A DNA stretch of 37,078 bases, from IMG/VR virus record IMGVR_UViG_3300009506_000255, positions 1 to 37,078 of that record, one strand, 5' to 3'. The DNA is from a virus. Positions within the stretch are counted from its first letter, which is position 1; each line of letters opens with the position of its first letter. The position numbers were made by a program, and so were the translations under genes. The notes beneath the pieces were generated by a model that saw only the letters and a list, made by a program, of their open reading frames with translations, made no database searches and had not been told where the DNA came from. Below, piece by piece: positions 3,392 to 28,775 of the stretch.

Positions 3392-3835
3392 ATGGCTAAC
3401 TACGAAGCAGCATGTCGGAGCAACTACTTCCGCGTCAAGGATGAACAGGCGTTTCGTGCCTGGGCCAAGGCGCGGAACCTGGAAATCTTCCCAAGCGGGC
3501 CAGATCGGGAGTTCTGCGATCAGTACGACGAAGTATCGGAAGTATCGGATCATCAACAGAGCTTCATGATCTCGCATGAGGACGGAACGTGGCCGGTGTT
3601 TTTCTACGACGACAACGATAAAGACTGTGAATGTGACGTGGTTGAAGAGTTGGCCCAACACCTGCACCCGGACGATATAGCTGTCTTAATGGAAGCCGGG
3701 CACGAGAAGCTGCGGTATGTCTGTGGCCATGCGATCGCAGTCAACGCCAAAGGCGAAACGGTGGCGATCCACCTGTCGGACATCTACGACAAAGCCCGAC
3801 ATTTGGGTGAGAACCTCACGTTCTGTGAGTACTGA
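3392..3835 (+). CDS. Acidic hypothetical protein, 147 aa
   Basis: ATG 3392 follows AGAAAGGAAAGAACG. The pattern FRVKDEQAFRAWAKARNLEIF, then beta strands (WPVFFYDDND) and a VEELAQHLHPDDIAVLMEAG segment, is typical of small globular proteins on phages and plasmids (anti-restriction or signalling-like folds are possible, not shown). High Asp/Glu content. No definite family. Confidence 0.7.
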   Translation: MANYEAACRSNYFRVKDEQAFRAWAKARNLEIFPSGPDREFCDQYDEVSEVSDHQQSFMISHEDGTWPVFFYDDNDKDCECDVVEELAQHLHPDDIAVLMEAGHEKLRYVCGHAIAVNAKGETVAIHLSDIYDKARHLGENLTFCEY

Positions 3836-3846
3836 GAGGATGGGCC

Positions 3847-4257
3847 ATGAACCCGCGAATCGAGAAATTCATCACCGAGCTGAGGAAGTGGAAAGTACAA
3901 GACGATCAGGTCGCCTCGGAGCACCCAGAGATAAAGGATGGATACTTCAGTGCCTACGACGAGGCCCGCGCCGATTCCAACGAAGGTCTATCCAACATCG
4001 TTGAGAGCTTCCTGGCTGAGTTGGATGAGCGTCCGATCAACCCCCACGCCGACGTGACGAGCCTGATCGAGGAGTACGGCGACCTGAAAGACGCTCTGCC
4101 TTCGACGCGGCGGCAACTGCTGGAAGACAAGGACTGGACGGTAGACGCGGCCCAGGCCCTGCTCGATCTAGCCCGGGAATACGGCTGGTTCATGCTGCGG
4201 AGCGCCCTGGCGTTGGCGATGGTGCTGGGTATCGAAGATGGGACCAAAGACCTTTGA
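3847..4257 (+). CDS. Hypothetical helical protein, 136 aa
   Basis: ATG 3847 has GAGAGGATGGG upstream. The protein looks mostly alpha-helical (IEKFITELRKWKVQ, IVESFLAELDERP, LLDLAREYGWFML) and acidic. No catalytic motif is visible. It sits 11 nt after the previous stop and 12 nt before the next gene. Confidence 0.65.
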   Translation: MNPRIEKFITELRKWKVQDDQVASEHPEIKDGYFSAYDEARADSNEGLSNIVESFLAELDERPINPHADVTSLIEEYGDLKDALPSTRRQLLEDKDWTVDAAQALLDLAREYGWFMLRSALALAMVLGIEDGTKDL

Positions 4258-4269
4258 AAGGAGAAAACG

Positions 4270-4755
4270 ATGGGCTTTGACTTGTACGGCAAGAACCCGG
4301 CCTGCGAGGCGGGGCAGTACTTCCGCAACAGCGTCTGGGGCTGGCATCCCCTGGCGGATTACGTGCTCAGCACGTGCTACGACCTGATGAGCGCGGAGGA
4401 GATGCAGTACTGGCACACCAACGACGGTCAGTTGGTCTCGGACGTGACGGCGCACAACATCGCCGTGCGGTTGAACCAGTTGCTGGCCAGTGGCAGCGTG
4501 GCCCGCTTTGAGGCCAAGCACGAGGCGGAGCGTAAGTCCTTACCGAAACAGACCTGCCAGTGGTGCAACGGGACGGGGTTTCGGGACGACGAGGTTGGGC
4601 AGCAAGCCCGGGAGGCAAACCCGGAGTTCACCTGCAACGGCTGTAATGGCACCGGGGAAATGGATGATTGGGACAGCCACTATCCTTTCTCGGAAGAGAA
4701 CGTCCAGAGATTTTCCGATTTCTGCGCCCTCAGCGGGGGGTTCACTATCTGTTAA
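4270..4755 (+). CDS. Phage protein with DnaJ-type CxxCxGxG zinc-finger repeats
   Basis: 161 aa; ATG 4270 follows TGAAAGGAGAAAACG. Residues around 95-130 carry two CxxCxGxG motifs (CQWCNGTG and CNGCNGTG), the zinc-binding signature of the DnaJ cysteine-rich domain, but there is no J domain. The N-terminal part begins MGFDLYGKNP, a start shared by several small phage and plasmid proteins. Likely a zinc-binding accessory protein; the partner is unknown. Confidence 0.75.
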   Translation: MGFDLYGKNPACEAGQYFRNSVWGWHPLADYVLSTCYDLMSAEEMQYWHTNDGQLVSDVTAHNIAVRLNQLLASGSVARFEAKHEAERKSLPKQTCQWCNGTGFRDDEVGQQAREANPEFTCNGCNGTGEMDDWDSHYPFSEENVQRFSDFCALSGGFTIC

Positions 4756-4760
4756 CCTAC

Positions 4761-4774
4761 CTACGATTTCGTAG
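4761..4774. promoter_or_regulatory. Copy 2 of dispersed near-palindrome
   Basis: CTACGATTTCGTAG, with perfect 6-bp arms around a 2-nt centre. It lies 20 nt upstream of the ATG at 4795, between the stop of the zinc-finger gene and the leader of the DUF3150-like gene, so it is well placed as an operator for the AAA module. Confidence 0.55.
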
Positions 4775-4794
4775 GGAAACGAAAGGAAAGAACG

Positions 4795-18726: not shown

Positions 18727-18763
18727 GTAGACAATGACTGATACCAACGAAAGGAACAAGAGC

Positions 18764-20524
18764 ATGACACCCGAAGAACTGACGAAACACCTGGAAGCAC
18801 ACGAGTATCGATTCGCCAAGACCATGCCGCAGATCCCGCATTACTACACCCTGCGGAAAAACTGGAAGGACGACAAGCTGTTCGAAGAGGTGGTCCAGGC
18901 CATCCGCGATCTGGGTGAGGTGCGGCCCTGGCCGGCCCCGCCGAAGAAGGCCCGGTACCACCACACCTACTTCGACGCGGGCGAGTGGAGTTACTGGTCG
19001 ATGGGCGCCCCGCTGAATGAGACGATCTTGATCAACCGGGCCAAGACCTACCATCCGACCACGGCGAAGCCGGTGGAGAAGGAACCTGAACAAGCTGCAC
19101 CGATGGAACCGGAGCTGGTCGACGAGGAGAAGACTGGCGATCCCGAGACAGGGCCCCAGGATCTGACGCCGCTGGCTCCAGCCGTTGAGGACGAAAGTCA
19201 GCCTGTCGCGGACCTTGAGGCGCCGCCTATCGAACATCCAGAGTCGCAAGGTGAGACGTCGGCCACGGAGCCTACGAAACCGGATGATTCCGTACGAAGC
19301 AACGGGTCGCTGCACATCATTCGGTTGCAGGCCGAGAACTTCAAGAAGCTCCGGGCGGTGGAGATCACCCCGAAAGGGAACGTGGTGACGATCACCGGGC
19401 GCAACGGAGCTGGCAAGTCGTCGGTGCTGGATTCGATTTTCGCCGCCCTCGGGGGACGAAACGCGGCGCCGAAGAAGCCGATTCGCGAGGGTGAAAAGCG
19501 GTCCCGGGTTGTGGCTGATCTCGGCGACCTGGTGGCAACACAAGTCTTCACGCCGTCCGGATCCCGGCTGGAAGTGGCGAACAAGGATGGGATGGTGTTC
19601 AAGAGCCCCCAGGCGGTGCTCGATAAGCTCGTGGGCGCGATCGGGTTCGATCCCCTGGCGTTCATGGCGATGGACGACAAGGCCAAGCGGCAGGTCCTGA
19701 TCGAGTTGATGGGCGTGGACGTGACGGCACACGATAAGAAGATCGCCGATCTGAAGAACGATCGCAGCACCCTGATGGAAAAGAAGAAGGAGGCTGCCAA
19801 GGAACTGGAAGCGATGCCCCAATGGCCGGAGGCGCCGGAGGAAGAAGTCTCGGTGACGGAGTTGATGGCCGAGTTGAAGCAGGCCAACGAGACCAACAAA
19901 GCCCTTGAGACCCTCGAGAAGCAGGCGGACGCGGACCTGAAGGAACTGACGCGGCTGAGCGAGGAGTTCCGGGCGCTTCAGGTCAAGATCGCCACCGCCC
20001 AGCAGGCGGCCCAGACGTCTCAGGCAGCACTGAAGGACAAATCCAAGGTGGACACGGAAGCCATTGAACAGCGTGCCGAGAAGTTGGAGACGACCAATAA
20101 GCAGGTCCGCGAGAATCAAGCCCGCACCAAGAAAGAGGCCGAGATCGAGGAGTTAGGCAACCAGGTCTATACCAAGTACCAGGCGATCCAGGCGGCCGAG
20201 GCCGAGAAGGCCAACGCCCTCGCCGAGGTCAAACTGCCGCTGGAAGGGTTGTCAGTGGACGAGGAAGGCGTCACCTTCGATGGGATTCCCCTGAGTCAGG
20301 TCAACCACGCCAAACAGGTCGAGGTCTCCATGGCGATCGGCATGGCCCAGAATCCGAAGCTCCGGGTGATGCTGGCGAACGGCAATGGTCTGGACTCCGA
20401 GACCCTGGCCACCGTGGCGCGGCTGGCGCAGGAGAATGACTATCAGGTCTGGCTCGAAGTCGCCGACGAGTCGGGCAAGATGGGGATCGTAATAGAAGAC
20501 GGAACAGTAGCCAGCGTCAACTAG
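18764..20524 (+). CDS. SMC/SbcC-like ATPase with extra N-terminal phage domain
   Basis: 586 aa. ATG 18764 was chosen over 18734 because CGAAAGGAACAAGAGC precedes it. Residues 1-97 (YRFAKTMPQIPHYYTLRKNW; YWSMGAPLNETILINR) form a phage domain often seen as a separate protein. Residues 98-180 are a Pro/Glu linker. Residues 183-586 are an AAA_23/SMC-type ATPase with Walker A GRNGAGKSS (212-220), a coiled coil (about 350-480) and a degenerate Walker B region (LRVMLANGNGLDSE). It is likely a recombination/repair or DNA-end-processing partner of the phage. No nuclease subunit (SbcD) is seen. Confidence 0.8.
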   Translation: MTPEELTKHLEAHEYRFAKTMPQIPHYYTLRKNWKDDKLFEEVVQAIRDLGEVRPWPAPPKKARYHHTYFDAGEWSYWSMGAPLNETILINRAKTYHPTTAKPVEKEPEQAAPMEPELVDEEKTGDPETGPQDLTPLAPAVEDESQPVADLEAPPIEHPESQGETSATEPTKPDDSVRSNGSLHIIRLQAENFKKLRAVEITPKGNVVTITGRNGAGKSSVLDSIFAALGGRNAAPKKPIREGEKRSRVVADLGDLVATQVFTPSGSRLEVANKDGMVFKSPQAVLDKLVGAIGFDPLAFMAMDDKAKRQVLIELMGVDVTAHDKKIADLKNDRSTLMEKKKEAAKELEAMPQWPEAPEEEVSVTELMAELKQANETNKALETLEKQADADLKELTRLSEEFRALQVKIATAQQAAQTSQAALKDKSKVDTEAIEQRAEKLETTNKQVRENQARTKKEAEIEELGNQVYTKYQAIQAAEAEKANALAEVKLPLEGLSVDEEGVTFDGIPLSQVNHAKQVEVSMAIGMAQNPKLRVMLANGNGLDSETLATVARLAQENDYQVWLEVADESGKMGIVIEDGTVASVN

Positions 20525-20554: not shown

Positions 20555-21172
20555 AGCGTGCCACGAATGCGAAGAAACCCAGGATGAGCTAGCGTACCAC
20601 CTCTGGCAAGAAGCCCACAATTCTACAGTGTGCCGAGATCCGATAGAAAGCCATGGAAGCCGAGCGTGCCAGTCAACGGAAGTATCCCATTTTGATTTAG
20701 CGTGCCCAGCGAGTAAAGCAACCCAACGGTCAGAGCGTGCCAAAATAAGGGAGCAACCCAACTTAAAGCAGCGTGCCGAGGTCGGATAGAAACCCATGGC
20801 AACAAAGCGTGCCATAGTATCGAAGCACCCCAGGCGTTGTCAGCGAGCCGAGCAAGACCAGGACCCCAAAATGCTCTAGCGAGCCATACGACAGTAGAAG
20901 CCCACTGAGAGCGAGCGAGCCAAACCAAGCGAGCAACCCGAAACGGACAGCGTGCCACTATGTGTCAGCACCCCAGGCGTTGTTAGCGAGCCGAGCAAGA
21001 CCAGGACCCCAACAAACAAGAGCGTGCCATTTAGGGCGAGAAACCCACGAAACACAAGCGTGCCATCATTAAGAAGAAACCCACGGCTCTTGAGCGTGCC
21101 ATGCGGTTGTAGGAGCCCAGAAATCCGAAGCGTGCCACTTTGTCGAAGAAATCCTTAGGTATCAAGCGTCAC
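20555..21172 (+). repeat. TIGR-type array, upstream part (17 units, 36-bp period)
   Basis: Each 36-bp unit is AGCGTGCC, 10 variable nt, AGAAACCC, 10 variable nt. Units start at 20555, 20591, 20627, 20663, 20699, 20734, 20770, 20806, 20842, 20878, 20914, 20949, 20985, 21021, 21057, 21093 and 21129; two units are 35 bp. A degenerate end repeat AGCGTCAC is at 21165. The base after each 8-mer is mostly purine, so 9-nt repeats and 9-nt spacers fit equally well. Variants of box 1 are AGCGAGCC and AGTGTGCC; of box 2 AGAAGCCC, AGCAACCC, AGCACCCC. First-spacer examples: acgaatgcga, acctctggca, gagatccgat, agtcaacgga. There is no open frame with codon conservation. This fits a tandem interspaced guide RNA array giving 36-nt dual-spacer RNAs. 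Confidence 0.9.
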
Positions 21173-21191
21173 TTATTCAAGGAGAACGACC

Positions 21192-22079
21192 ATGAACACC
21201 TTAGTCAGCAAGAGTCTAGTCAGAACCATGTATGACGTGCAGCACGAGCGGATCCAAACAGGAAACAGGATTTGTGCAGAAATCAAGGCCCGGCTGGGTC
21301 AGAAGCCGGGCCAGTCGGAAGACGAACTGGAGAAGGAATCGAAAGAGTTCCTGGCCCGGGCCCGGCGTGAGTATGCCCGGATCACCGACGCCTTCGTGTT
21401 GAGCCAGGCGCACAAGTACTTGAAGGTGGACTTCAGCGAGTACGAGATCATCACCGATGCCGGAATGCTGGTGTTCGTGGAACTGTACGAGCAGCAGTTG
21501 GCCCACGAGCAGAAGATGACCAAGGTGATCGGCAAGATCGTCCAGCAGCATGATCTGTGGGGTGCGTTCCTCGAGCAGGTCCGGGGCTGCGGTCCGCTGA
21601 TGAGCGCGGTGATCCTGAGCGAGTTCGACATCCACAAGGCCGAGCGGATCAGTCAGTTCTGGCGGTACGCGGGGCTGTCGGTGGAATCGGACGGCCGGGG
21701 CACGGGCCGGTACAAGGAGCACCTCGTCGAGCAGGAGTACACCGACAAGGACGGCAAGCAGCAGACGAAGAAGGGCATCGCCTTCAACCCGTTCTTGAAG
21801 ACCAAGCTCGTGGGTGTTCTGGCCAGCTCGTTCCTGAAACAGCCGGCGGATGAGTGCAAGTACCGCAAGGTCTACGACGACTACAAGAACCGCCTCGAGA
21901 ACCACCCTAAGCACGCCGAGAAGACCAAGGGACACCGTCATGCGATGGCGATGCGGTACTGCATCAAGATCTTCCTGCAGGATCTGTGGCTGGCGTGGCG
22001 GACGCTGGAGAACCTGCCGATCACGGCGCCCTATAACGAGGCCGTGCTCGGTCACCAGCACCACGAAGAAGCGGCCTGA
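21192..22079 (+). CDS. tasA: TasA-like Nop-domain protein (IS110 C-terminal-like, no nuclease)
   Basis: 295 aa; ATG 21192 behind AAGGAGAACGACC. Residues 45-125 are helical and likely coiled. Residues 128-163 (VRGCGPLMSAVILSEF, then FWRYAGLSVES) and the later helices (FNPFLKTKLVGVLASSF; MRYCIKIFLQDLWLAWR) follow the C-terminal Transposase_20/Nop-like domain of IS110-family proteins. The N-terminal DEDD RuvC-like catalytic domain is absent, as are HNH motifs. Flanked on both sides by a 36-bp dual-spacer array, it fits a stand-alone Tas protein that binds guide RNA and DNA without cutting. A homology search would probably label it 'transposase'. There are no terminal inverted repeats and no target duplication. 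Confidence 0.85.
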   Translation: MNTLVSKSLVRTMYDVQHERIQTGNRICAEIKARLGQKPGQSEDELEKESKEFLARARREYARITDAFVLSQAHKYLKVDFSEYEIITDAGMLVFVELYEQQLAHEQKMTKVIGKIVQQHDLWGAFLEQVRGCGPLMSAVILSEFDIHKAERISQFWRYAGLSVESDGRGTGRYKEHLVEQEYTDKDGKQQTKKGIAFNPFLKTKLVGVLASSFLKQPADECKYRKVYDDYKNRLENHPKHAEKTKGHRHAMAMRYCIKIFLQDLWLAWRTLENLPITAPYNEAVLGHQHHEEAA

Positions 22080-22086
22080 TCGAGAG

Positions 22087-22256
22087 AGTAGCCCCAGAGG
22101 TTAAAGCGTGCCATTCGCTTGAAGAATCCCGTACGACGAGAGCGAGCCATCGGTATGTAGAAGCCCAAGTTGCAGAAGCGAGCCTAACTGGTCAAGAAAC
22201 CCACGATTTTCGAGCGTGCCAGTATATCCCAGCAACCCACAAATCGGGAGCGTGTT
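22087..22256 (+). repeat. TIGR-type array, downstream part (half unit + 4 units)
   Basis: The periodic pattern resumes 8 nt after the tas stop codon with a second-type box AGTAGCCC (22087-22094). Four full units start at 22105, 22141, 22177 and 22213, and an end box AGCGTGTT is at 22249. Spacer pairs include attcgcttga/gtacgacgag, atcggtatgt/aagttgcaga, taactggtca/acgattttcg and agtatatccc/acaaatcggg. The box sequences are the same as in the upstream part, so both belong to one system, on the same strand. The 22080-22289 gap contains nothing else apart from the next ribosome binding site. Confidence 0.88.
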
Positions 22257-22289: not shown

Positions 22290-22649
22290 ATGAAATTCAG
22301 TTTACAGACGGAGTATGCCATCGAATTGATGGAGCGTCTCAGCCGCAGCGTCAAGACGGCTACTCTGACGGAGTTGTTGGATGGAACGTCCATCGGCAAG
22401 ACATATGCCGAGGTTGTCATCCAGAAACTGCGCGAGGCGGGGCTGGTCCGATCGGTCCGCGGCCGCAAGGGCGGGTACCAGCTCGGCCGGGCGAAAGTGA
22501 CGCTGTGGGACATCATCAACGCGGTGGAAGGTTCTATTAAGCCTGAACGCCAGGTCGTTCCGAGCGTCCAGCGCGGCTATGACGTACTGGCGCAGGGCGT
22601 GGCCAAGAGCCTGGGGGGGGTCTCCCTCCAGGCGCTGGCCCAGGCCTAA
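22290..22649 (+). CDS. Rrf2-family transcriptional regulator
   Basis: 119 aa; ATG 22290 behind GAAAGGATGGTCAG. The winged-helix pattern FSLQTEYAIELMERLSR, then GKTYAEVVIQKLREAGLVRS and RGRKGGYQLGR, is diagnostic of Rrf2 proteins. The three cysteines that bind an Fe-S cluster in IscR/NsrR are absent, so a redox cluster is unlikely. It sits directly after the TIGR-type array and could regulate that locus or the following operon; targets are unknown. Confidence 0.85.
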   Translation: MKFSLQTEYAIELMERLSRSVKTATLTELLDGTSIGKTYAEVVIQKLREAGLVRSVRGRKGGYQLGRAKVTLWDIINAVEGSIKPERQVVPSVQRGYDVLAQGVAKSLGGVSLQALAQA

Positions 22650-25503: not shown

Positions 25504-26123
25504 TCAAGGTTATTGGAGACCACCGGGTCAAGTGCGGCTCGGTAATGGCAGGGATCGACGATTTGATGGGGGGGGCGAAGGCGGATGTGATCTACTCAGA
25601 CCCGCCGTGGGGGCAGGGCAACGTCAAGTACTGGCAGACGATGAACCACAAGCAGACGGGGGCGGCCACCGAGGAGATCAAGTTTGCGGAGTTCCTGAAC
25701 CAGGTCTTCGATATCATTGCCAAGTATGCAGCCGGTCCGGCCCTGATTGAGTATGGCCAGCGTTGGCGGGAGGAGATCGAGGCGCAGGCGAAGCGCATCG
25801 GGTTCAAGATCCTGCTGCGCTGCGAATCCTGGTACCATGGCGGGGGCAAATTGTACCCATTGGACTTCTATGTCATGAGCCGGGGGATCGAGATGAAGAT
25901 TCCCGAGGGTTACGCGGCCGACCTCGGCAAATTGAAGGGGGGGGCGTTTTCTGTCCAGGCGATTGAGCCGTTTGCGGTCCCGGGCGGGATTGTCCTGGAT
26001 CCGATGTGTGGCATGGGCTATACGGCCAGTGCGGCGATGAAGCACGGGATGCGGTTCTATGGGAACGAGTTGAACGCGAACCGCCTGGCCAAGACGATCA
26101 GACGGCTGGAACGGGGCCGATGA
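25500..26123 (+). CDS. Beta-class N4/N6 DNA methyltransferase
   Basis: 207 aa; ATG 25500 overlaps the preceding TGA (ATGA) with GAAGGAGAAGCC upstream. Catalytic YSDPPWGQGN (DPPW 34-37) is followed near the C-terminus by the SAM motif VLDPMCGMGYTASAAM and a GNELNANRL segment. All elements of a compact phage DNA methylase are present. Its partner or recognition site is unknown. It is a likely duplicate, more canonical than the preceding gene. Confidence 0.8.
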   Translation: MIKVIGDHRVKCGSVMAGIDDLMGGAKADVIYSDPPWGQGNVKYWQTMNHKQTGAATEEIKFAEFLNQVFDIIAKYAAGPALIEYGQRWREEIEAQAKRIGFKILLRCESWYHGGGKLYPLDFYVMSRGIEMKIPEGYAADLGKLKGGAFSVQAIEPFAVPGGIVLDPMCGMGYTASAAMKHGMRFYGNELNANRLAKTIRRLERGR

Positions 26124-27322
26124 AGATCTACCGCAACCAGAACGTCTACGATGCAGCGATGGACCGCATCCGGTTCCTGTATGATGAGTTCCCGGAAGTC
26201 ATTTGCTGCAGCAGTGGGGGGAAAGACTCAACGGTGTGCTTTCACTTGTGCTTGCAGGTGGCGAAAGAGATGGGTCGGCTACCGCTACGGGTGATGTGGA
26301 TCGACCAGGAGGCGGAGTGGCAGGGCACGGTCGACTACATGACCGAGATCATGACCCGCGACGACGTCATTCCCATGTGGTACCAGATGCCCATGGTGAT
26401 CACGAACAACGCCAGCAGCTTCGAGCGATATAACTATTGCTGGAAGCCGGAGGATGAGGCGATCTGGGTGCACCCTCAGCATCCCATCTCCATCAAGGAG
26501 AATCGGTTTGGTGAGGTGCGATTCCACAAGCTCTTCGACGCCATTCTCAAGGGCGAGTTCCCTGACACCAAAGCGTGTTTCGTGGGAGGGGTGCGGACCC
26601 AGGAGGCGCCGAAGCGGTTCCTGGCCCTGACGGACACAGCGTTCTACCTGGGGTACACCTGGGGGAAGATCATCAGTAGCAAACGGGGCCACTACACGGC
26701 GTATCCGATCTACGACTGGGAGGTTAAGGACGTCTGGAAGGCGATCCACGATAACGGCTGGCCGTACAATCGCGTCTACGATGAGATGTATCGCTACGGC
26801 CACAACCCGTACGGGATGCGGATTTCGAACTTGCACCATGAGACCTCGATTCAAGATCTGATGCTGGTGCAGGAGATCGAGCCGGAAACCTGGAACCGCG
26901 TGGCGGCGTGGATCGGTGGGGCCAACACGATCAAGCAGTTGAAGACCCGTGCGTTTGCCTGCCCATCCCAGCTACCCTTCATGTTCGACACCTGGGAGTC
27001 ATACGCGGAGCACCTGATCGACAACATCGTGCAGGACGAGAAGAACCGTCAGACACTCCGTAAGAAGTTGGCCGGCCTCCTGAAGGTCTACATTGACCCA
27101 GATGTTCGTAACTCCCTGATGCATGTGGTGATCAACACCGTACTGAGCAGCGACTGGGACTTTACGAAGCTGAAGAACTTCCAGACGAACCCGTCGGTGT
27201 ATTCATACCGCATGTGGCGTCTGGGCCGGCCTCCCCACCAAAGCTGGCTCAAGACCAAGTACATTCCCGAGGAGGCCCGTCCCATGATCGAGCAGACCCT
27301 GAAAGGGAAAGCCTATGAATGA
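26120..27322 (+). CDS. IbrA-like PAPS-reductase-family PP-loop protein
   Basis: 400 aa; ATG 26120 in an ATGA overlap. PP-loop SSGGKDSTVC (31-40) near the N-terminus, then MWIDQEAEWQGTVDYM, GVRTQEAPKRFLAL and YPIYDWEVKDVWKAI. These are features of the phosphoadenosine-phosphosulfate reductase superfamily clade that includes IbrA (DUF3440-containing). It activates a substrate by adenylation; the actual substrate is unknown. The downstream partner is IbrB-like, preserving the ibrA-ibrB pairing known from enteric prophages and islands. Confidence 0.85.
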   Translation: MKIYRNQNVYDAAMDRIRFLYDEFPEVICCSSGGKDSTVCFHLCLQVAKEMGRLPLRVMWIDQEAEWQGTVDYMTEIMTRDDVIPMWYQMPMVITNNASSFERYNYCWKPEDEAIWVHPQHPISIKENRFGEVRFHKLFDAILKGEFPDTKACFVGGVRTQEAPKRFLALTDTAFYLGYTWGKIISSKRGHYTAYPIYDWEVKDVWKAIHDNGWPYNRVYDEMYRYGHNPYGMRISNLHHETSIQDLMLVQEIEPETWNRVAAWIGGANTIKQLKTRAFACPSQLPFMFDTWESYAEHLIDNIVQDEKNRQTLRKKLAGLLKVYIDPDVRNSLMHVVINTVLSSDWDFTKLKNFQTNPSVYSYRMWRLGRPPHQSWLKTKYIPEEARPMIEQTLKGKAYE

Positions 27323-28775
27323 CAAGACCAGCAAGGCCATCGAGGCGATCAAGGACGCTATCGTCTGGGGCAAGGACAAGGTGGCCGTGATTGAGGAGAT
27401 CCGGGAGGAGCTACATCGATTATCCCCGTTGAAGGACCAGCCTGTTGACCGGGTGCGATGGGTGAGGGCAGAACTGGTCGAGCCCAACGACTACAATCCC
27501 AACGCAGTGGCGCGGAAGGAGATGGGGCTGTTGTACGTAAGTATCCGGCAAGACGGATATTGTGTCGGTGTTGAGACGCCTATTTTGTGCGACGACCTCG
27601 TATGGCGGCCAGCAGGAACTCTGAAGGTTGGCGACAAGATTATAGCGTTTGATGAAGAGCCGGTTCCAGGGGCACAATACAAGCACGCTCGAAGGTTTTG
27701 CACGGCCGAAGTTACTCATAATCATAGACAGAGGGATAGGCTGTACCGAGTTATCACGGATCGGGGGGAAGTATTGACAAATGCTGCGCACCCCTGGCTT
27801 GGGCAGCGAATGTGTGGTGATGCGTCTAAGCGAACCCTGCGGTGGATGCAAACGGAAGATCTGCGAGCGGGTGATCTTCTTATGCACTTGGTTGATCCTT
27901 GGGAGCAGGAAACTACTTACGACGCAGGTTGGCTAGCAGGTTTCCTTGATGGCGAAGGGTCCTTGGCGCAGAGCCAAGCAAAGACCCATGCACCTGGGCA
28001 TCGGTTGGCGGCTTACCAGCGACCTGGACCGACAGCAGATCGAATGGCTCGTGAGATTACTGCTAGGGTCTGTGCAACCGTGCGTACGCATGAGCATGAG
28101 AATGAAAAATGGAATGATATGGTCATGGTTAGGGTGGGGCGGATTGGTGAGGTAATGCGTCTCTTGGGATTGGTTCGTCCGGAGCGGTTAATAACCGCTG
28201 GTTATGGGTTCTGGGAGGGTGTTTCCATTGCCCGGGAGGATTGCCGAGCGACCGTGATTGAAGTCCAGGATGCTGGGTTGGGGGATATTGCATCGCTGGC
28301 TACCTCCAGTAGGATGTATATTGCGTCTGGGTTTGCAATGCACAACACTCAACCCATCGTAACGATCTGGGACGAGGAGAAGGGCAAATACGTTATCATC
28401 GATGGTTTCCACCGCTTCTATGTGGGCAAGACCAAGGAGGACATCCAGCAGTTGCTTCAAGGATATCTGCCGATCGTGGTGATTGACAAGCCGATCAATG
28501 ACCGAATGGCCTCGACCGTAAGACACAACCGGGCCCGGGGGGAGCACTCCGTAGGGGGAATGGGCAAGCTGGTCTTCGAGATGCTGGATAACGGTTGGGA
28601 CGACGCAGAAATCTGTAACCAGATGGGTCTGGAACCGGAGGAACTCCTGAAGCTCAAACACATTACGGGTTTCTCGGCCCTATTCAAGAACGTCGAGTAC
28701 AGCAAGGCCTGGGAGACCAAGAAGATGATCCGGATGCGCCTGAAAGCCCAGAAAGGTGCTACCAATGAGGCGTAA
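27315..28775 (+). CDS. IbrB-like ParB-domain protein interrupted by an intein
   Basis: 486 aa precursor; ATG 27315 overlaps the upstream stop by 8 nt. Extein part 1 (1-82) ends ...YVSIRQDGY. Extein part 2 (345-486) begins TQPIVTIWDEE and continues with VIIDGFHRFYVG and RHNRARGEHS. Joined, these give an unbroken IbrB/ParB sequence of 224 aa. The intein (83-344) begins with Cys and ends His-Asn before Thr, as needed for splicing. IbrB works with IbrA as a regulatory pair in enteric bacteria; here the function is unknown. Extein codons match the neighbours, intein codons do not. Confidence 0.88.
   Translation: MNDKTSKAIEAIKDAIVWGKDKVAVIEEIREELHRLSPLKDQPVDRVRWVRAELVEPNDYNPNAVARKEMGLLYVSIRQDGYCVGVETPILCDDLVWRPAGTLKVGDKIIAFDEEPVPGAQYKHARRFCTAEVTHNHRQRDRLYRVITDRGEVLTNAAHPWLGQRMCGDASKRTLRWMQTEDLRAGDLLMHLVDPWEQETTYDAGWLAGFLDGEGSLAQSQAKTHAPGHRLAAYQRPGPTADRMAREITARVCATVRTHEHENEKWNDMVMVRVGRIGEVMRLLGLVRPERLITAGYGFWEGVSIAREDCRATVIEVQDAGLGDIASLATSSRMYIASGFAMHNTQPIVTIWDEEKGKYVIIDGFHRFYVGKTKEDIQQLLQGYLPIVVIDKPINDRMASTVRHNRARGEHSVGGMGKLVFEMLDNGWDDAEICNQMGLEPEELLKLKHITGFSALFKNVEYSKAWETKKMIRMRLKAQKGATNEA
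27561..28346 (+). mobile_element. LAGLIDADG intein within the IbrB-like gene
   Basis: 262 codons in frame. Block A: CVGVETPILCDD then TLKVGDKIIAFDE. Block B: VLTNAAHPWL (TxxxH). Homing endonuclease motif: AGWLAGFLDGEGSLA. Block F/G: IASLATSSRMYIASGFAMHN, followed by the +1 Thr of the extein. The composition is lower in GC and codon use differs from the flanking phage genes. It inserts at the conserved DGY-TQPIV junction of the host protein. Only one clear LAGLIDADG motif is seen, so the endonuclease may be dimeric or decaying. Confidence 0.9.

Follow-up and report, generated by a model that had tools for sequence, protein, structure and literature searches.

A stretch of viral DNA of 37,078 bp, which is the complete IMG/VR virus record IMGVR_UViG_3300009506_000255 and is called the window here, was found to carry a tandem interspaced guide RNA (TIGR) locus, in which the gene for a solo-Nop TIGR-associated protein, tasA, lies between arrays of alternating short repeats. 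The locus is a dual-repeat TIGR-TasA, a system type already described in 2025; TIGR-TasA with dual-repeat arrays was reported by Faure et al. (2025; PMC12045711), an example being the TasA of Flavonifractor plautii. It is assigned to the TIGR-Tas systems because the family model, the matches to solved structures, the predicted fold, and the array anatomy all agree, in line with a preliminary description of this DNA, made from sequence alone, that had filed it as TasA type. The explanation favored here, at a probability of roughly 0.8, is that TasA would hold DNA without cutting it, directed by guides that are replaced fast. The locus is a clean TasA addition with long arrays on both sides; its relatives contribute most of what is of further interest. 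The natural targets and the spacer renewal of TIGR-Tas systems are stated open questions (PMC12045711), and the relatives open both to testing: guide turnover can be followed in near-identical phage pairs, and a conserved guide provides a concrete candidate target with a fixed orientation and gap.

Family and fold of the TasA protein

The NCBI TIGR-Tas model NF052498.1 matched the window protein with 135 bits (cutoff, 100), and the NCBIfam IS110 model reached 22.5 bits (cutoff, 140), which does not place the protein firmly among IS110 transposases. NF052498.1 represents the whole Tas family and is named for an endonuclease; its match covers the Nop part only of the window protein, in which a Pfam scan found no nuclease family. 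Sequence searches of the PDB retrieved TasR (9mty; E value, 1.2e-14) and TasH (21kl; 4.7e-7), and a profile of 38 relatives matched TasR (3e-28) and TasH (6e-24), followed by the IS110-family recombinases IS621 and ISCro4 (about 0.005).

The AlphaFold2 model of TasA had a mean predicted local distance difference test score of 84, and the top 10 Foldseek matches were all TasR or TasH. The Nop-like fold anticipated in the preliminary description was present in the model; VIA-align ranked TasH (Z score, 19.7) and TasR (18.8) first, then the IS110 family (14.7 for ISCro4; about 14.5 for IS621 and ISCro4), and then Nop5 and Prp31 (about 7 to 8). The last scores are weak alone, yet the modeled similarity agrees with the known Nop relationship. 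Residue 1 of the TasA model aligned at residue 66 of TasH and residue 3 at residue 111 of TasR. Because the model begins behind the nuclease domains of TasH and TasR, the window protein is, on this modeling, a solo-Nop TasA that starts behind the place of those domains. The earlier claim of a 295-aa Nop-like protein without RuvC or HNH domains was thus upheld by both the family match and the model.

The best fold match, TasH, belongs to the TIGR-TasH system of Salicola phage CGphi29 (SpTIGR), whose repeats are nearly the same as those of the window (CGphi29 edge, AAGCGAGCCA; loop, AAGACAACCA); TasH, however, has an N-terminal HNH nuclease, and the window protein begins after it. TaTasR (9mty) has the same Nop and coiled-coil fold, with 29% identity over 191 residues, but carries a RuvC domain and cuts DNA. 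The bridge-RNA recombinases IS621 and ISCro4 share a related RNA-binding part, to which TasA aligned only from their residue 126 onward; unlike them, the window protein has no DEDD catalytic domain, and its guides lie in an array. With Nop5 of the box C/D small nucleolar ribonucleoprotein and with Prp31, only the Nop part aligned. The window protein lacks the N-terminal domain by which Nop5 binds fibrillarin, has low similarity to Nop5 and Prp31, and would be expected to target DNA rather than RNA.

Anatomy of the arrays

Two repeat types, the edge (AGCGTGCC or AGCGAGCC) and the loop (AGAAACCC and variants), alternate in the window and are separated by spacers of 9 to 10 nt, giving 17 complete units upstream and 4 downstream of the 295-aa gene. 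Edge 8-mers start at 20555, 20591, and so on to 21129 for the 17 units and at 22105 to 22213 for the 4 units; the unit length is 36 bp, with exactly two units of 35 bp (starts, 20699 and 20914). The edge-spacer-loop pattern had 20 matches on the plus strand of the window, all within 20555 to 22256, with none on the minus strand and none in 20 shuffles of the window. Self-similarity at lag 36 was 0.487, compared with a maximum of 0.358 over all lags in 500 shuffles. Edge positions, pattern scan, and self-similarity all confirmed the 21 alternating units, with their two short exceptions, that had been noted before; an additional unit leads the downstream array. No second array was evident elsewhere in the window.

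The leading unit opens with a degenerate edge (AAGCGGCC; 22069 to 22076) inside the last tasA codons, and its spacer A (TGATCGAGAG) begins at the tasA stop codon; the loop AGTAGCCC (22087 to 22094) and spacer B (CAGAGGTTAA) follow. A stop codon that runs into the first edge (TAG into CC, TGA into GCC) was also seen in several relatives (loci L002, L005, L030, L033, L045, and L049). Both window repeats start with AG and end with CC, which the edge and loop share. An A follows the terminal CC in 15 of the 21 edges and in 18 of the 21 loops, as box C in TIGR repeats, which reads CCA in TasR (PMC12045711), would lead one to expect. The boxes of TasR read UG...CCA, whereas those of the window read AG...CC(A), so that the first box differs.

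The locus resembles published TIGR-TasA in its solo Nop protein, two alternating repeats of 8 to 12 nt, spacers of about 9 nt, and 36-nt unit, as well as in the placement of arrays upstream and/or downstream of the gene, in the truncated edges at the array ends, and in its location in a phage. It differs from the F. plautii TasA in host and sequence and in having an Rrf2 regulator gene next in line. Truncated edges at array ends followed by a terminator are described as typical, not strict (PMC12045711). Unlike in published TIGR-TasA, no terminator-like site was found on the plus strand of the window between the array and the Rrf2 gene, and the leading edge overlaps the tasA stop region. No such site was found between the arrays and tasA either; because they lie on the same strand with no terminator-like site in between, the arrays and tasA probably form one transcript.

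Arrays and guide turnover in relatives

An alignment search yielded 60 viral contigs with relatives, to which phage records added Mvi-JY20, Talia1610, and the published Salicola phage CGphi29; a tblastn scan of GTDB contigs found no relative. Pattern matching placed the same 36-bp dual-repeat array on the gene's strand in 56 of these 63 other TasA loci (57 with the window), counted before the removal of near-identical ones, and some of the remaining 7 hold diverged units. Among the 51 nonredundant loci, the array was downstream only in 28, on both sides in 11, and upstream only in 5; the two-sided layout of the window is therefore a common minority. Spacer GC content tracked genome GC content across loci (slope, 0.57; r, 0.78), a relation compatible with targets of similar composition and not decisive.

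Guide turnover without visible adaptation genes was observed in the relatives. L010 and L014 have tasA genes that are 98.3% identical and identical downstream flanks, but only 3 units agree in both spacers, of 12 and 15 extracted (L010, 10790 to 11520; L014, 8986 to 9880). L020 and L022 (tasA, 98.7%) likewise agree in 3 units, of 22 and 27 (L020, 8850 to 9920; L022, 10793 to 12030). Each pair shares stretches at the two ends of the array, and the guides of the interior are replaced. Between L002 and L003, units were exchanged between loop repeats, leaving the same loop with a different spacer B. Half-spacers of the same kind were alike (at least 8 of 9 nt) within arrays in 52 to 54 per 10,000 pairs, compared with 7 per 10,000 when A was set against B within one array and 2.5 across different arrays, and in most of the alike pairs only one half is common. 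Recombination between the short repeats accounts for part of the turnover; it does not account for the origin of new spacers. In the window, units 8 and 9 and units 12 and 13 hold a common block (Table 1) in which each half has a different partner, and this duplication suggests the re-pairing of half-spacers by recombination. Guides 3 (20627 to 20662) and 7 (20770 to 20805) of the window are near copies of each other.

A conserved guide matching the tRNA D-arm

One irregular unit of 38 nt was kept in four divergent phages, L010/L012, L017, L020 to L023, and L024 (at about 11287 in L010, 8007 in L017, 11751 in L022, and 7111 in L024), among neighboring units that differ. The TasA proteins of these loci are 85 to 93% identical to one another and about 50% identical to that of the window. 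Under the target rule derived from the 8-nt 3' overhangs of TasR, in which spacer B is followed by the reverse complement of spacer A with a gap of 0, the conserved unit reads ATARCTCAGTYTGGTTAG (ATARCTCAG plus TYTGGTTAG), the D-arm of bacterial tRNA genes. The exact 18-mer occurred 122 times in those portions of IMG/VR and GTDB contigs that were retrieved; 103 of these occurrences were inside tRNA genes called by ARAGORN. All 103 were in sense, and in nearly every case the match began at tRNA position 7 or 8; tRNA-Ile(GAT), tRNA-Met, and tRNA-His were the most frequent. The tRNA set was gathered with the motif itself, so that the exactness of the matches is by construction, but their in-register fall on tRNA genes is not.

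With its spacers in the opposite order, the conserved unit had no tRNA match, and none of the other array units came closer to tRNAs than control level. The match appears to support pairing by spacer B plus the reverse complement of spacer A, with gap 0 and in that orientation only. A DNA target would fit this guide better than the tRNA molecule, because spacer B has the tRNA sense and spacer A the antisense. The tRNA D-arm is a candidate natural target of TIGR-TasA in these relatives. If true, no natural target class would have been identified earlier for a TIGR system that lacks a nuclease; tRNA targets are not mentioned in the main text of the TIGR-Tas paper (PMC12045711). The conserved D-arm guide is absent from the window. 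A second conserved composite, ACTTGGTCT plus TGCCTTMAA, was present in L016, L018, and L020 to L023 (L016, 10779; L018, 8052; L020, 9653; L022, 11797).

Proposed mode of action and alternatives

In the favored explanation, the arrays and tasA would be co-transcribed from their common strand. TasA, expected from family and fold to dimerize and to have a Nop RNA-binding domain and a coiled coil, would bind 36-nt guide RNAs (tigRNAs) cut at the edge repeats; Tas-dependent 36-nt tigRNAs have been demonstrated with one TasR, one TasH, and a different TasA (PMC12045711). Each tigRNA would read an 18-bp DNA site, as spacer B and then the reverse complement of spacer A, with one spacer per strand, and such tandem pairing to both strands has been shown for TasR and TasH (PMC12045711). 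Without RuvC or HNH, TasA would hold and probably bend the site uncut and would thereby keep host genes or competing elements from being transcribed or replicated, and the guides would be replaced quickly, partly by repeat recombination that re-pairs half-spacers. We infer by analogy that the TasA of the window silences host genes or competitors by binding.

Several points weigh against this explanation. The silencing role is proposed by analogy with CRISPR types that lack a nuclease, an argument also made by the 2025 authors (PMC12045711), and for TasA the text of that report shows RNA binding, not DNA binding (PMC12045711). The search with spacer pairs that the preliminary description had proposed gave no target above control in the window, in TIGR phage loci, in tRNAs, or, for three guides, in IMG/VR. 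Counts for the 21 spacer pairs against the 37-kb window, in both orientations with gaps of 0 to 2, were similar to those for re-paired controls; the guides also remained at control level against about 1 Mb of TIGR phage loci (four orientations; gaps of 0 to 2) and against tRNAs, where the best match had 3 mismatches in the published orientation. Exact IMG/VR matches of the three scanned guides were at chance level, with none for unit 3, one for unit 8, and, for unit 7 (TGGCAACAA plus 0 to 2 nt plus ATCCGACCT), 13 contigs that reduce to about 4 independent sites; because each guide consists of two 9-nt halves, an isolated match in a large collection means little. Furthermore, the phage genome of the window is probably partial, because no tail genes were recognized among the open reading frames (ORFs) scanned, and no host was assignable because the closest terminase among phage records is <40% identical.

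Two observations concern individual guides. With a 1-nt gap, unit 7 exactly matches the site of the WQQNPT motif in a large-terminase-like gene of one phage family (L146 to L148, L151, L152, and L154 to L157); terminase relatives of the window had no excess of near matches, and this candidate target was set aside as chance. When guides 3 and 7 are read as spacer B, one gap base, and the reverse complement of spacer A, both begin with ATG and code for MxxxSDL, the SDL part differing by synonymous changes, as though they were wobble variants aimed at one gene start in two relatives. This is a lead only; a degenerate scan for the MxxxSDL gene start returned one mosaic match, inside a gene.

For the group as a whole, the evidence tips somewhat toward a broader picture in which phage TIGR-TasA arrays would be fast-changing, self-renewing guide cassettes without adaptation genes, renewed partly via recombination at edge or loop repeats that gives half-spacers new partners. 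One clade would keep a single constant tRNA D-arm guide, blocking or bending host or rival tRNA genes, and the window would belong to the same kind at a greater distance, with targets of its own.

It is unlikely that RNA-guided DNA bending instead aids integration, recombination, or segregation as an integrase or ParB helper, a role speculated on by Faure et al. TasR bends DNA by about 180 degrees, and TasA sometimes adjoins ParB genes (PMC12045711). ParB-like genes lie 1.7 kb and more downstream of the TIGR locus in the window. The conserved guide of the relatives matches tRNA genes, and phages frequently integrate at such genes. However, the match falls at tRNA positions 7 to 24 and not in the 3' half, the part that usually serves as the attachment site; no integrase was recognized among the scanned ORFs of the window; and a helper would not need some 20 different, fast-changing guides.

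It seems improbable that the guides are directed at the genome of the phage itself, for instance to time its gene expression or replication. The array and tasA do lie within a replication-type cluster ahead of the head genes (SbcC-like ATPase, DnaQ-like exonuclease, clamp loader, and ParB-like genes), but the spacer pairs matched the window no better than re-paired controls, in a record that is probably partial; sites may lie outside it. Next to no weight falls on an IS110-family transposase or decayed insertion sequence beside an unrelated tandem repeat, a reading suggested by how databases annotate related proteins and for which a weak Pfam Transposase_20 match (17.2 bits; cutoff, 21.3) and PHROG 4285, labeled transposase, speak, since the NCBI models separate the two families, the ORF begins beyond the point where the catalytic RuvC-like domain would lie, and the same array type adjoins most other family members.

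Genomic context and further relatives

Judged by its genes, the window is a tailed phage, with terminase, portal, and head-morphogenesis genes at 29.2 to 36 kb. The features of the locus and its immediate neighbors are collected in Table 1. A PAPS-reductase-like gene (PHROG 2302; DUF3440) lies at 26006 to 27322 and is followed by a ParB-like gene at 27315 to 28775.

Table 1. Features of the TIGR-TasA locus and adjoining genes in the window
Feature	Position	Strand	Basis
SbcC/SMC-like ATPase (PHROG 1499), adjoins array upstream	18734..20524	+	Library match
Upstream TIGR array, 17 complete units	20555..21164	+	Edge AGCGWGCC, spacer A of 9-10 nt, loop AGNANCCC, spacer B of 9-10 nt
Duplicated block, first copy (loop-spacer B-edge-spacer A-loop, units 8-9)	20824..20869	+	Direct reading and unit comparison
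Duplicated block, second copy (units 12-13), shared half-spacers with new partners	20967..21012	+	Direct reading and unit comparison
3'-truncated edge AGCGT, closes upstream array, then tasA Shine-Dalgarno AAGGAG	21165..21169	+	Direct reading
tasA, 295-aa solo-Nop TIGR-associated protein without nuclease domain	21192..22079	+	NF052498.1, PDB matches, predicted fold
Leading unit of downstream array	22069..22104	+	Direct reading
Downstream TIGR array, 4 complete 36-bp units	22105..22248	+	Repeat pattern
Degenerate last edge AGCGTGTT, closes downstream array	22249..22256	+	Direct reading
Rrf2-family transcriptional regulator, adjoins array downstream	22290..22649	+	Pfam PF02082, E 2.8e-17

Among the relatives, L001 encodes at 1013 to 1888 a TasA that is 52% identical to that of the window, with no recognizable array within its 11.9 kb. 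Two further relatives come from phages with known hosts, that of Talia1610 being a named laboratory host. In Microcystis phage Mvi-JY20 (L005; PP438412.1), the protein XAI95461.1, annotated as hypothetical, is TasA (3794 to 4519), and a dual-repeat array downstream of it, at about 4520 to 4790, ends in a terminator-like hairpin. In Arthrobacter phage Talia1610 (L006; PQ559666.1; 3158 to 3800 and 3824 to 4507), gp255 is a TasA-like protein, and about eight inverted repeats upstream of it, with arms 24 to 41 nt apart, resemble published stem-loop TIGR arrays.
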